Below the pieces are notes generated by a model. That model saw only the letters and a list, made by a program, of their open reading frames with translations. It did not search any database and was not told the origin of the DNA. A DNA stretch of 64,000 nt, taken from the NCBI RefSeq assembly GCF_002119805.1, contig NZ_CP021059.1:1054001-1118000 (forward strand), written 5' to 3'. Origin of the DNA: Macrococcoides canis. GTDB taxonomy: Bacteria; Bacillota; Bacilli; Staphylococcales; Staphylococcaceae. Of this stretch, positions 14,749-51,046 are shown in pieces; positions within the stretch are counted from its first letter, which is position 1, and each line of letters begins with the position of its first letter. Position numbers and translations under genes: made by a program.

Positions 14749-14764
14749 AGTTAGGATGAACAAA

Positions 14765-15346
14765 ATGAATATACCAAATCAAATTACAGTAGCTAGAGTA
14801 CTTTTAATACCGATATTCCTGGTGTTTTTACTTGCAGATTTCAATATGGGTGATATTTCTGTGCTCGGCTCGAAAGTGATGCGCAACGAACAGTTTATTG
14901 CTGCGTTAATTTTTATTTTTGCTTCGCTTACAGACTGGATAGATGGTTATCTAGCACGTAAATGGCAGCTTGTAACAAATATGGGGAAATTTCTTGATCC
15001 TTTAGCAGATAAATTACTTGTATCAAGTGGTCTTATAGCATTAGTAGAGCTTGATGCGATACCTTCATGGATGGCAATCGTTATTATTGCACGTGAATTT
15101 GCAGTTACTGGTCTTCGACTCTTACAAATTGAACAAGGATTTGTTTCTGCTGCCGGACAGTTAGGAAAGATTAAAACGGCAGTAACTATGCTGGCGATGA
15201 CTTTACTTCTACTTAATGAACCATTTTCAGAGTGGACTGGTTTTGACAGTGGCTATCTTCTTATGTATGTTGCAGTATTCTTTACTGTATTATCTGGAAT
15301 TGAATATTTTTATCACGGACGTGATGTATTTAAAAATTCAAAATAG
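14765..15346 (+). CDS. pgsA: CDP-diacylglycerol-glycerol-3-phosphate 3-phosphatidyltransferase
   Basis: Integral membrane enzyme that makes phosphatidylglycerophosphate, the committed step to phosphatidylglycerol. The CDP-alcohol phosphotransferase motif is complete near residues 58-82: DGYLAR, then G after eight residues, then D-x3-D within KFLDPLADK. Four to six hydrophobic segments are visible. ATG 14765 (MNIPNQIT) fits the usual N-terminus and places TTAGGATG at a proper distance; an in-frame ATG at 14756 overlaps that site. The product is 193 residues. In Bacillus and Staphylococcus cinA follows; here a non-coding repeat does. Confidence 0.95.
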
Positions 15347-15515
15347 CATGAGAGGGTGAGACATAAGTCTCAGCCCTCTTCTGTTTAACAGCTTAAACGG
15401 TGGAACAGAAGTTGCCCCTACGACAAAAACCGAACAAAAACTATAAATCAAAGAACGATTTATTAGTTTTGTTCGGTTTTTGCTTGTGGCAGAACACTTC
15501 TGTCACAGCCTCATG
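15347..15515. repeat. Dispersed nested-hairpin repeat, expanded copy
   Basis: A 169-base element running from CATGAG to CTCATG immediately after the pgsA stop. It is built of nested inverted repeats: outer ends, a GAGGGTGAGAC / GTCTCAGCCCTC hairpin, a CTGTTTAA / TTAAACGG hairpin, and ACAGAAGT / ACTTCTGT enclosing a long inner hairpin. Outside the inner block it matches almost base for base the 82-base element at 49516-49597. The extra block of about 87 bases lies between GGAAC and ACTTCTGT of the shorter copy. It probably acts as pgsA terminator. Confidence 0.8.
15425..15481. terminator. Long hairpin inside the repeat, probable bidirectional terminator
   Basis: Arms of about 25 bases (15425-15449 and 15457-15481) pair with one bulged A, loop AAAGAAC. 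The arms begin with AAAAA and end with TTTTT, so the structure has a U-tract on either strand. Confidence 0.8.
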
Positions 15516-15746: not shown

Positions 15747-16808
15747 ATGAGCGAAAGACAAAAAGCATTAGACACAGTTATTAAGAATATGGAGAAATCA
15801 TTTGGGAAAGGTGCTGTTATGAAGCTTGGAGATCGTACAGATCGCAATGTTTCAACAGTGTCAAGTGGTTCTATTACATTAGATAGTGCACTTGGCGTTG
15901 GCGGTTACCCAAAGGGTCGTATCATAGAAATTTATGGTCCGGAAAGTTCAGGTAAGACAACTGTTGCGCTTCATGCCATTGCAGAAGTACAGCGCCAAGG
16001 TGGAGTTGCTGCGTTCATTGATGCTGAGCATGCACTTGATCCAGTATACGCGAAGAATCTAGGAGTAGATATCGAAAACCTATACTTATCTCAACCAGAT
16101 CACGGTGAACAAGGACTGGAAATAGCAGAAGCGTTCGTTAGAAGTGGTGCAGTGGATATAATTGTTGTCGATTCAGTTGCTGCGTTAACACCTAAAGCAG
16201 AGATTGAAGGTGAGATGGGAGACTCGCATATGGGGCTTCAGGCACGCCTTATGTCTCAAGCGTTACGTAAGTTATCAGGTTCTGTATCTAAGTCTAATAC
16301 GATTGCGATCTTTATCAACCAAGTACGTGAGAAGATCGGTGTAATGTTCGGTAATCCAGAGACAACTCCAGGTGGACGTGCACTTAAATTCTATTCTTCA
16401 GTGCGTCTGGAAGTACGTCGTGCAGAACAGTTGAAGCAAGGTCAGGATATTGTAGGGAACAGAACAAAGATTAAGGTCGTTAAAAATAAAGTAGCACCTC
16501 CATTTAAGGTAGCTGAAGTAGATATTATGTACGGTAAAGGTATTTCTCGTGAAGGTGAAATCGTTGATCTAGGTGCAGAATATGAAGTGCTGCAAAAGTC
16601 AGGGGCATGGTACTCTTATGATGGAGAACGTATCGGTCAAGGTCGAGAAAATATTAAGACTTATCTGAAAGAGAATCCAGAAGTACGTGATGAAATCGAC
16701 CAGAAGATTCGTAAGGCGATGGGCGTTGGTGCTTCATTAGAGGAACCGTCAGTACAAAAGGAAGAAGTGCCAGTAGAAGATAATTTATTCGACGACGAGT
16801 TAGAATAG
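15747..16808 (+). CDS. recA: Recombinase RecA
   Basis: ATP-dependent strand-exchange protein and co-protease for LexA. Walker [10 protein letters not shown] lies near residue 65, the Walker B segment [14 protein letters not shown] near 140, and the L2 loop contains [21 protein letters not shown] (about residues 190-210). The acidic C-terminus (DNLFDDELE) is normal. ATG 15747 follows CAGGAGG; an in-frame TTG at 15726 is upstream of that site and rejected. The product is 353 residues. The LexA box upstream predicts SOS induction. It is a single-gene unit with its own terminator. Confidence 0.98.
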
Positions 16809-22291: not shown

Positions 22292-22362
22292 AATTAAGAA
22301 TCTGTACCTAATTTATTATAAAACTGTTATACTAAAAACGTACAAAAAAATATAAATCTAAA

Positions 22363-22442
22363 CACTAGGGGAGTTATTCTGAGATTGGATTCGTCCTAAA
22401 CCCTTATATACCTGATCTGGATTATGCCAGCGTAGGGAAGTG
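22363..22442 (+). ncRNA. TPP riboswitch (thi box)
   Basis: The leader contains the conserved TPP-aptamer elements in order: GGGGAG, CTGAGA (22379-22384), ACCCTT, ACCTGATCTGGATTATGCC and GCGTAGGGAAG. The P1 stem can close between CACT (22363-22366) and AGTG (22439-22442). An intrinsic terminator starts eight bases later. This is transcriptional attenuation of the downstream importer when thiamin pyrophosphate is abundant. Confidence 0.97.
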
Positions 22443-22450
22443 CCTATTGA

Positions 22451-22479
22451 CACAACCTGCAGTCAGGTTGTGTTTTTTT
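22451..22479 (+). terminator. Riboswitch-controlled terminator
   Basis: CACAACCTG (22451-22459) pairs with CAGGTTGTG (22464-22472), loop CAGT, then seven T. It lies between the TPP aptamer and the thiY ribosome site, the expected expression platform. Confidence 0.93.
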
Positions 22480-48453: not shown

Positions 48454-49488
48454 ATGCCTGAAAAATTAAAAAAACAGTTTCAAGCTTATAAAGAGATTGT
48501 TAAATCTGATAGTCCGCTATATCACTATATTGCGGATAAAATAAGTGAAGATGAAAAGTATTTAACCCAGCTAAAACCTTATGCTGTAGATGCTAGTTTT
48601 ATCCCACTTTTCTTTACAGCAGTTTTAAAGAGCTTATATATATATGAGGATGACTTGCGTGACTACTACTTAAATTTTACTGATAAACCAAAAGCACCTG
48701 ATGATAAACTGGTGCGTCACTTTAAATCTTTTACAGATCGTTACATGACGAATATATCACAGGATATCAGAAGATATGATCTGAAGAAGAATATTGTTGA
48801 ACGTTCTTCTGTGCTCATCCCAATTTTTACTCAGATTATTAAAGAGAGTGGTCATGAACATTTTAATATGATCGAGCTTGGTACACGTGCTGGATTATTA
48901 TTAAATTATGACTGGTATGGCTATACTTTTAATAAATCAGTCGTACTTGGAGATACTGAGCAAATGAATATCAAGGTGAGAATTAATCAGTATGATAGCT
49001 TAGATAAGATAGAACCTTTAGTTCATCCTAATCAGAAGATAGGAATCACCCGTAATAAGATGGATATTGCGACTGAAGAGGATCATTTATGGCTCCTCAG
49101 CCTATATTATCCTGAAGAAAACAAAAGACGTAAATATTATTCTAAAGCAAGGAAGCTTTTTTTAGAGCATCCTGTTGATATATATGAAGGGGAAGAGATT
49201 CAGCTGCTTGATGAACAGCTGAGTACACTGCCTGAAGATGAACCGATTATTATCTTTCATATCCACGTAACGAAACACTGGTCAGATGAGAGAAAACAGC
49301 AACTTTTAGCTGTAATTCAAAAACACGCACAGTCTAAAGAAATCTATCACGTGCATCATCAGATTTTTAATAGTGATATTTATCTGGATTCCTTTTTTGA
49401 AGGGAATGTTAAGCGTGAGAAACTGGCACATTTTGATTTGAATAAACTGCAGATAGAATGGTTATATAATCAGCCGATTAAGTTATAA
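48454..49488 (+). CDS. DUF2332 family protein
   Basis: Protein of the DUF2332 family, which has no assigned function. The most characteristic segment is IELGTRAGLLLNYDWYGY near residue 142, which recalls the glycine-rich cofactor loop of class I methyltransferases, followed by RINQYDSL and later VFHIHVTKHWS-like strands (IIIFHIHVTKHW near 260). The 344-residue protein has no signal or membrane segment. The start follows TTGGAGGCAG. It is a single gene between the 52-aa ORF and the second copy of the dispersed repeat. A methyltransferase role is only a weak inference. Confidence 0.78.
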   Translation: MPEKLKKQFQAYKEIVKSDSPLYHYIADKISEDEKYLTQLKPYAVDASFIPLFFTAVLKSLYIYEDDLRDYYLNFTDKPKAPDDKLVRHFKSFTDRYMTNISQDIRRYDLKKNIVERSSVLIPIFTQIIKESGHEHFNMIELGTRAGLLLNYDWYGYTFNKSVVLGDTEQMNIKVRINQYDSLDKIEPLVHPNQKIGITRNKMDIATEEDHLWLLSLYYPEENKRRKYYSKARKLFLEHPVDIYEGEEIQLLDEQLSTLPEDEPIIIFHIHVTKHWSDERKQQLLAVIQKHAQSKEIYHVHHQIFNSDIYLDSFFEGNVKREKLAHFDLNKLQIEWLYNQPIKL

Positions 49489-49515: not shown

Positions 49516-49597
49516 CTCATGAGGGTGAGACATAAGTCTCACCCCTCTTCTGTTTAACAGCTTAAACGGCGGAACACTTCTGTCCCAGCCTCATGAG
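49516..49597. repeat. Dispersed nested-hairpin repeat, short copy
   Basis: An 82-base element bounded by CTCATGAG and CTCATGAG, with an inner GGGTGAGAC / GTCTCACCC hairpin (49522-49543) and a CTGTTTAA / TTAAACGG hairpin. It matches the outer parts of the 15347-15515 element nearly base for base but lacks its inner block of about 87 bases. It lies between the convergent DUF2332 gene and lysC and probably terminates both. Confidence 0.8.
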
Positions 49598-49605
49598 TTT
49601 TTCTA

Positions 49606-50949
49606 TTATGCAAAATATGCTTCATATGCTGCAAGTACTGCTCTATCTGCATCTTTCTCCTCGATGCCGAACATCATACTGATTTCTGAAGAACCTTGGT
49701 TGATCATTTTCAAGTTGATGTTATTCGTTTTAAATGCTTCAGTGGCTTTATTTGCAGTACCGACGAGTGTCTTCATACCTAGACCTACAACCATCAGTAT
49801 TGCGATATTCTTTTCTATTGAAAGGGCGTCTACTTTTAATTCGTTTTCTATTTTTTCTAGTAACTTTGATTCCTTGCCTTCAAGTTGGTGGGCTCGTAAT
49901 ATTACACTGATATCATCGATTCCAGAAGGCATATGTTCATATGAAATGTTCATATCTTCTAGGATAGATAAGAGACGACGTGTAAATCCAATTTCTCTGT
50001 TCATCAAATATTTCTTCATATTGATACTGACAAACCCTGAATCACAACTTACACCCACGACACCTGAAGATTGTCTTGAATTCGTAATAAGTGTCCCGGG
50101 GTGATCTGGATCGTTCGTATTTTTAATGTTTACAGGTATTCCAGAACGATAGACAGGTAACAAAGCCTCGTCATGAAAGACATTAAAGCCAGCATAAGAA
50201 AGTTCACGCATTTCCTCATATGTCAACTGTATAATTGAAGCAGGCTGATTAACGATATTCGGGTTGGCAGAGAAAATACCGGATACATCTGTAAAATTTT
50301 CATAGACATCACTGTTTACACTGCTGGCGATAATTGCACCTGTGATATCACTTCCTCCTCGAGAGAAAGTATTGATATCACCATTTTCGTTAATGCCAAA
50401 AAATCCGGGAATAATTACTTTACCTTCAACATCTACGAGTTTGTTCATAATAGTTTCATAGCTCTTTTCTAATACAACCGCATTAGAAGGTTCATCACTG
50501 ACAATAAGGCCGATATCTCCTGGAGAAAAGTATGTTGTCTTGATTCCTTGTTCATTGTTATAGTTTGCGATGAGCTGCGCATTAAAATCTTCTCCGCAAC
50601 TCTTTAGTGCATCTGTCAGACGTTCAGGCTGATGTTGATAGCGCTTGATATAATCATTCAGCTGAGTACGAAATGTCTCTATCAATGAGTGATCTATATT
50701 TAACTCTTTCTCTATTTGCAGGAATCGATCCAGAATTTGTGTGATGAGATCCTGATGATCCTTCTTAAGTAATACAGCCTCTATTAACGCTATCAGCATA
50801 TCCGTAACTTTAATATCTTCTTTATAACGTTTTCCTGGTGCTGAAACAACAATGTATTTCCTTTTATTATCTTCATTGATTATCTTCAGTATTTTTTTTA
50901 TTTGCTGTGCATCGGCAACGCTTGAACCGCCAAATTTACAAACTTTCAT
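49606..50949 (-). CDS. lysC: Aspartate kinase
   Basis: First enzyme of the aspartate family pathway (lysine, threonine, methionine). The kinase signature KFGGSSVADA is at residues 4-13, the substrate region SRGGSDITGAI near residue 195, and two ACT domains occupy about residues 300-447, so it should be feedback regulated. I favour ATG at 50949 (MKVCKFGGSS), with GAGTGA four bases upstream, over an in-frame ATG at 50961 that lacks a ribosome site. The product is 447 residues. It is divergent from hom-thrC-thrB, as in S. aureus. No lysine riboswitch or T-box is visible upstream. Confidence 0.93.
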   Translation of the reverse strand: MKVCKFGGSSVADAQQIKKILKIINEDNKRKYIVVSAPGKRYKEDIKVTDMLIALIEAVLLKKDHQDLITQILDRFLQIEKELNIDHSLIETFRTQLNDYIKRYQHQPERLTDALKSCGEDFNAQLIANYNNEQGIKTTYFSPGDIGLIVSDEPSNAVVLEKSYETIMNKLVDVEGKVIIPGFFGINENGDINTFSRGGSDITGAIIASSVNSDVYENFTDVSGIFSANPNIVNQPASIIQLTYEEMRELSYAGFNVFHDEALLPVYRSGIPVNIKNTNDPDHPGTLITNSRQSSGVVGVSCDSGFVSINMKKYLMNREIGFTRRLLSILEDMNISYEHMPSGIDDISVILRAHQLEGKESKLLEKIENELKVDALSIEKNIAILMVVGLGMKTLVGTANKATEAFKTNNINLKMINQGSSEISMMFGIEEKDADRAVLAAYEAYFA

Positions 50950-51046
50950 AAAATCACTCATTTCGCTTAATATAATTATTATTTTATCTATAAAATGTAA
51001 TAAAATATAGAGTAGAGAATAAATTAAATAAATTATTGATATAACC

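Follow-up and report, generated by a model that had tools for sequence, protein, structure and literature searches.

A putative non-autonomous element with IS1182-type ends that appears to take the place of gene-end hairpins in Macrococcoides canis

The window analysed here, a stretch of 64,000 nucleotides from the Macrococcoides canis genome, holds two elements built of nested hairpins, a long one (copy 1) and a short one (copy 2), and both are present at the positions reported in a preliminary description of this DNA. Copy 1 starts 5 bases past the stop codon of a pgsA-type gene (14756..15346, plus strand; PF01066) and is followed by recA (15747..16808, plus strand; PF00154). Copy 2 lies between a DUF2332 gene upstream (48454..49488, plus strand; PF10094) and a convergent aspartate-kinase-like gene with AA_kinase and ACT domains (49606..50961, minus strand). 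Both copies thus sit at gene 3′ ends, as first described, and both fold far better than shuffled sequence, with z = -9.96 for the 169-mer of copy 1 and z = -6.15 for the 82-mer of copy 2, none of 200 shuffles being equally stable in either case.

Alignment of the copies places the boundaries of the family unit at GAGGGTGAGACATAAGT...ACTTCTGTCCCAGCCTC, giving 161 bp for the long form and 72 bp for the short form. The shared ends had been given as CATGAG...CTCATG, and of these the GAGG...CCTC part holds when the copies are aligned, but the outermost CAT/ATG is no feature of the family. The core of copy 1 (15352..15512, plus strand, from alignment with other copies) opens with a left terminal inverted repeat of IS1182 type, GAGGGTGAGACATAAGT (15352..15368, plus strand), and closes with a right one that reads GAGGCTGTGACAGAAGT on the minus strand (15496..15512). 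The left end forms a hairpin of its own (15352..15378, plus strand), recognised from the fold and from other copies, which stands alone at two other loci of the genome (L016 and L030). Further inward an 8-bp direct repeat, GGTGGAAC (15399..15406, plus strand), precedes an inner module of 89 bp (15407..15495, plus strand) that is missing from the short form, as delimited by the difference in core length and by the repeats, and that ends with a second direct repeat, GGCAGAAC (15488..15495, plus strand). The module contains an inner hairpin (15424..15482, plus strand), placed by the fold and by IS insertions, whose loop is the target of an IS3-family element in another genome, G001. The core of copy 2 (49521..49592, plus strand, from its sequence and comparison with other copies) has a left terminal inverted repeat of the same type (49521..49537, plus strand), a right one reading GAGGCTGGGACAGAAGT on the minus strand (49576..49592), a terminator-like left hairpin (49523..49544, plus strand) and a single GGCGGAAC (49568..49575, plus strand), where the long form has two flanking the module.

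The two copies belong to a much larger set. BLAST searches of the window's genome (G000, a single contig of 2.36 Mb) at E up to 10 yielded 38 matches for the short form and 50 for the long one, totals that include second pieces of one copy and opposite-strand matches to palindromes. The better matches, sorted by hand, resolve into 21 family loci, a count that leaves out weaker BLAST rows such as those near 599439, 888607 and 1781939. These loci comprise 11 long copies (L031-L041), a long copy with a different left arm (L042), a remnant made of the inner module and right part (L043), 4 clear short copies (L001, L002, L003 and L014), 2 divergent short-like copies (L013 and L017) and the 2 copies that consist of the left hairpin only. 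Five sequences related to the inner module, but built on another inner stem, also stand alone in this genome (L044, L046, L048, L050 and L053), and 4 of the 5 adjoin another repeat like GGTCGTGACACGAGCGTTTAGACACGA. Gene orientation around the 21 loci, from crude ORF calling, is convergent at 14, tandem at 6, divergent at none and unresolved at one (L038), and all 20 resolved loci lie at most 40 bases from the stop codon of a neighbouring ORF.

Beyond this genome, all 9 genomes of the genus that were searched gave matches at E 1e-5, and a search of Staphylococcaceae at E 1e-6 gave matches in 10 of 108 genomes, nine in the genus and one in another genus; the remaining 98 returned none at that cut-off, the scoring having covered no more than 7 candidates in each genome. 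Exact matches to the inner motif among named genomes amount to 12 loci, all titled Macrococcus or Macrococcoides. Short copies number four in G002 (92-97% identical), and there are short-form-like copies in G001 (three, 77-79% identical) and G003 (one, 79% identical). No match was obtained for the long form in plasmid records, for the short form in phage records or for the inner motif in viral contigs. The proposal that the two elements represent a lineage-restricted intergenic family, with long and short states and sited at gene ends, is therefore borne out by the 21 loci and the 10 of 108 genomes, and the two copies of the window are far from being the only ones.

Judged by sequence likeness, the ends of the element are IS1182-type terminal inverted repeats, a point that the preliminary description missed. 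We built an end profile of 17 columns from 14 ends of 7 IS1182-family elements, with the repeats found by script and the rows aligned by hand. Nine IS1182-family loci had been taken from plasmid records and one from G008, a relative of the window's genome; of these 10 inspected elements, 7 were used, leaving out L167 (the same IS as L095), L162 (ISSau3) and L163 (IS1182). The namesake IS1182 has different ends, and a terminal inverted repeat was sought in ISSau3 and none found. When all 127,968 17-mers of the window are ranked by the profile, the four ends of the two copies outrank every other place, the right end of copy 2 coming first, the right end of copy 1 second and the two left ends tying for third. 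The four score 20.3 to 23.2, the next place in the window scores 15.5, and 10 shuffles reached at most 16.7. Among the IS1182-family repeats are those of Lactiplantibacillus plantarum (GAGGCTGTGACATAAGT), Aerococcus (GAGGCTGGGACAAAAGC) and the Macrococcus plasmid type (GAGTCCGGGACATAAGT). Furthermore, several IS1182-family ISs carry a small hairpin at their very end, like the left end of the element.

At 161 and 72 bp the element has no room for a transposase gene, and searches of the single contig of its genome for an IS1182-type transposase gave 0 matches with PF13751 and 0 with the L095 protein, a scope that could miss a plasmid. Because no such transposase was found there, the enzyme that moves the element is one that we infer. 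Eight PF13751 loci of the genus were checked for inverted repeats, and one has matching ends; it lies on a contig of the relative (G008:C2), its transposase frame is split, and its counterpart on a Macrococcoides caseolyticum plasmid encodes a protein 99.7% identical. No parent IS with the interior of the element was found. Element halves lying about 1.5 kb apart in G001 were considered as a candidate for an autonomous parent IS and rejected, the insert being of IS3 type (rve, HTH_21). This IS3-type insertion sequence of 1504 bp (L087-L092) has all 6 of its full-length copies inserted into the loop that caps the inner hairpin of the element, at slightly varying positions and with 3-bp duplications in 5 of the 6; a seventh, partial match to it lies at L205 of the same genome.

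What stands at the orthologous sites of relatives bears most directly on how the element arrives. G008 is 90% identical to the window's genome at recA, and the counterparts of the loci were fetched from it and their flanks aligned. The detailed comparison covers 11 of the 21 loci, leaving out those where one genome has another form of the element (L042, L043, L016 and L030), one with 3.4 kb between the flanks in G008 (L041), those aligned on one side only (L001, L002 and L013) and those not located in G008 (L033 and L017). A hairpin was found at all 11 G008 sites, with a stem score of at least 12 in 10 of them as against 24 of 600 random G008 stretches. Hairpins are usual at gene ends, and one in the relative is to be expected; the evidence is its loss in the genome that has the element. 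There, 272 of the 459 bases of the G008 hairpins are absent in total (18 to 36 per hairpin), and the flanks, once joined, give weaker hairpins at 11 of 11 sites (5.3 to 10.0 versus 9.0 to 22.3 in G008). The loop is fully absent at 8 of the 11 sites; 6 of 7 loop bases are absent at L036 and 5 of 10 at L014, and at L040 none of 3 is absent, the G008 loop being aligned as matched with a doubtful gap placement. The element at L032 is enclosed by the base of the stem that G008 has there (CGACAA...TTGTCG). Complementarity between the flanks, compared with random places for 10 of the 21 loci, is clear in 4, marginal in 1 and absent in 5. The G008 hairpins at L038 and L039 resemble the element's own end palindromes, and one family member may there have replaced another.

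Other genomes extend the comparison. G007 has the element where G006 has a hairpin of 16 pairs, with both flanks 98% identical, and at two sites (L071/L086 and L078/L261) the element is present in both of the compared species. At the pgsA-recA site none of 9 other genomes has the element and all 9 have another hairpin, of about six kinds, some of them common to near relatives, the site in G003 and G004 having been read by eye. At the lysC site a hairpin lies between seemingly the same two genes in 7 of 9 other genomes, the neighbouring gene differing in G008 and G004. No target-site duplication was noticed by eye at the sites compared. The element appears to have taken the place of pre-existing hairpins, which the preliminary description had not recognised.

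The same description was right that the long copy carries an extra inner block, whose size it put at about 87 bases; the two cores differ by 89 bp. It had offered two origins for the two states, a core that gained a module or a full element that lost one. An 8-bp direct repeat like GGCRGAAC stands on either side of the inner module in 27 of 28 aligned long copies (a chosen set of long-copy loci, counted with up to 2 and 1 mismatches allowed), at a spacing of 89 in 23 of the 27, 90 in 3 and 96 in 1, and short copies retain one such repeat. Because direct repeats bracket the module, loss from a full element is favoured over gain, and loss of the 89-bp module between the GGCRGAAC repeats would be the simplest account that fits the short form, gain being the less likely course. 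At the L042 locus the module is present in the window's genome and G008 has a short form without it.

Long copies of the window's genome are up to 96-97% identical to those of G002, G006 and G007, genomes whose recA is 79% identical to its own. As copies up to 97% identical contrast with recA at 79%, the element has likely been transferred between species. In G008, despite its closer recA, there are three matches, all of them partial, and none spans the full long form. A tree of the long copies has no strongly supported branch, and no history is drawn from it.

Whether the element also acts in RNA was approached in several ways. A terminator consensus scan found one site in copy 2, its left hairpin, with 0.1 expected, and none in copy 1. 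An annotated RNA family was rejected as an identity for the element, there being no Rfam match at the gathering score in either copy; under permissive settings, the Rfam matches to copy 1 all fell far short of the family cut-offs, and the only match at threshold in the window is a TPP riboswitch elsewhere (22357-22455; RF00059, 64.2 bits). The stems show weak covariation (6 of 37 pairs, term 0.06), and structural conservation was rejected as a sign of RNA function. The placement at gene ends, together with the apparent replacement of hairpins, suggests that the element may end transcription.

We propose a model for the spread of this family that most reasonably fits these observations, and we hold it to be very probable, namely that the element is a MITE, non-autonomous and bounded by ends of IS1182 type, which spreads by swapping in for the hairpins at gene ends. 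An IS1182-type transposase acting in trans would join the element into a target hairpin, usually a gene-end terminator. The upper part of the target hairpin would be lost and no target duplication made, and the nested hairpins of the element would from then on occupy the site and probably terminate transcription there instead. Insertions at gene ends would be tolerated, in this proposal, because the element would take over termination. The 161-bp form would be the full element, and the 72-bp form would arise from it by deletion of the inner module between the 8-bp direct repeats. Several observations count against the model: the lack of a transposase match in the window's genome, the split frame of the one PF13751 locus of the genus with matching ends, the failure to find a parent IS, the exceptions presented by IS1182 and ISSau3 and the hand alignment of the profile on the side of the ends; the loop matches at L040, L036 and L014, the resemblance at L038 and L039 and the 5 of 10 copies with no retained stem on the side of replacement; and, on the side of termination, the weak covariation and the missing terminator-scan site in copy 1.

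It could instead be supposed that the element inserted beside a native terminator, which later decayed as redundant. The element plausibly terminates transcription itself, and parts of the G008 hairpins at L040 and L014 still align with the flanks of the element, both of which suit such a course; however, the hairpin is gone between G006 and G007 despite 98% identity of the flanks, the breakpoints at L032 fall within the stem and leave its foot on both sides of the element, and the flanks, once joined, are left with only weaker hairpins at every one of the 11 sites, so that we consider decay after insertion unlikely. That the family is immobile, a structured RNA or terminator repeat under selection and homogenised by gene conversion, is harder still to credit. 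A relative has another hairpin at most of the compared sites, copies are more alike across species than recA is, the ends match those of the IS1182 family and covariation is weak, and these points make a static repeat very unlikely in our judgement, even though its gene-end placement, its stable folds, the matches to it in every one of the 9 genomes searched in the genus and the two sites common to two species all speak for it. There is, finally, hardly any probability to be given to a REP/REPIN-like sequence moved by a RAYT (Y1) transposase or an unrelated enzyme, with ends that resemble those of IS1182 elements by convergence. Such a sequence would likewise be palindromic and extragenic, and the targeting of the element's hairpin loop by an IS3-family element recalls that of REPs by several IS in the available text of PMC1525189, but the four ends lead the IS1182-family profile ranking and loss of the target hairpin is behaviour reported for IS1272 in the portions of its literature available. 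The MITE model with IS1182-type ends is the one that we retain.

Two abutting IS1182-type ends also occur as solo palindromes (GAGNCTGNGACA...TGTCNCAGNCTC), which 45 of 108 Staphylococcaceae genomes contain, with up to 55 per genome; a reversed control pattern of the palindrome gave 0 matches. Within the window's genus the exact palindrome is present in 1 of 9 genomes (one copy, in G008). One gene end read by eye in eight genomes of another genus has such or similar palindromes in 2, other hairpins in 5 and no clear hairpin in 1, variation that fits continual replacement, although a single locus proves nothing. As a separate observation, an IS1182-family element of Aerococcus (L168) lies between the stem halves AGAAAAGGGCG...CGCCCTTTTCT, which looks as though it, too, had displaced the upper part of a hairpin. 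We regard it as possible, if rather doubtful, that IS1182-type replacement of hairpin for hairpin drives the turnover of terminators throughout Staphylococcaceae, with the solo palindrome as its minimal form. If that were true, many ordinary-looking terminators would be mobile DNA units that trade places, and nested elements such as the present one would have grown as hairpins inserted again and again into hairpins.

The element itself has reached about 21 sites in a single genome, most of them by far gene ends, where relatives have other hairpins, and its apparent mode of spread offers a mechanism for fast turnover of terminator sequences among related bacteria. The sites further make up a natural collection of replaced terminators, and its two 17-bp ends would make a simple substrate for studying a poorly understood transposition mechanism. 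Among the matches listed in literature searches, whose scope left out most subscription journals, no paper was noticed that already describes a MITE of IS1182 type or one that targets terminators, and the end sequences, searched as text in papers, gave nothing useful among the matches listed.

STAR and other staphylococcal repeats are dispersed and intergenic, and the element resembles STAR as a dispersed intergenic repeat in the same bacterial family. The likeness to staphylococcal repeats raised in the preliminary description is not otherwise supported: the STAR core, GGGGCCC, is absent from both copies (its two matches in the window lie in neither element) and neither copy has an Rfam family at threshold. 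BOX elements of Streptococcus pneumoniae consist of end modules and an optional inner hairpin module, and the element is like them in this architecture. IS1397 is an insertion sequence that targets REP palindromes. REP sequences are targets for several IS, according to the available text of PMC1525189, and the element is similarly an extragenic palindrome hit by a site-preferring IS, the IS3-type one of G001, but unlike REP sequences its ends are of IS1182 type. Like the bacterial MITEs described in the accessible part of the review PMC10969869, it is short and non-coding, has IS-like terminal inverted repeats and is present in many intergenic copies with stable stem-loops; unlike the MITEs described there, which have target duplications, it has none that were seen, and the text of the review contains neither IS1182 nor any word starting with 'replac'. 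The closest parallel in behaviour is with IS1272 and TnSha1, which, as far as the available text of PMC5678879 and PMC4923244 goes, insert into hairpins, often terminators, with partial deletion of the target stem and without duplication. The element likewise appears to target hairpins, part of the stem is deleted and no duplication was noticed, the likeness to IS1272 being one of behaviour. IS1272 (1,945 bp) and TnSha1 (3,022 bp) both carry a transposase gene, whereas the element would be moved in trans because it is 72-161 bp long and non-coding. Stem-loop replacement in the papers found, as far as their available text shows, concerns such transposase-bearing elements, IS1272 and TnSha1, and what appears to be new here is a non-autonomous element that apparently uses the same kind of replacement.
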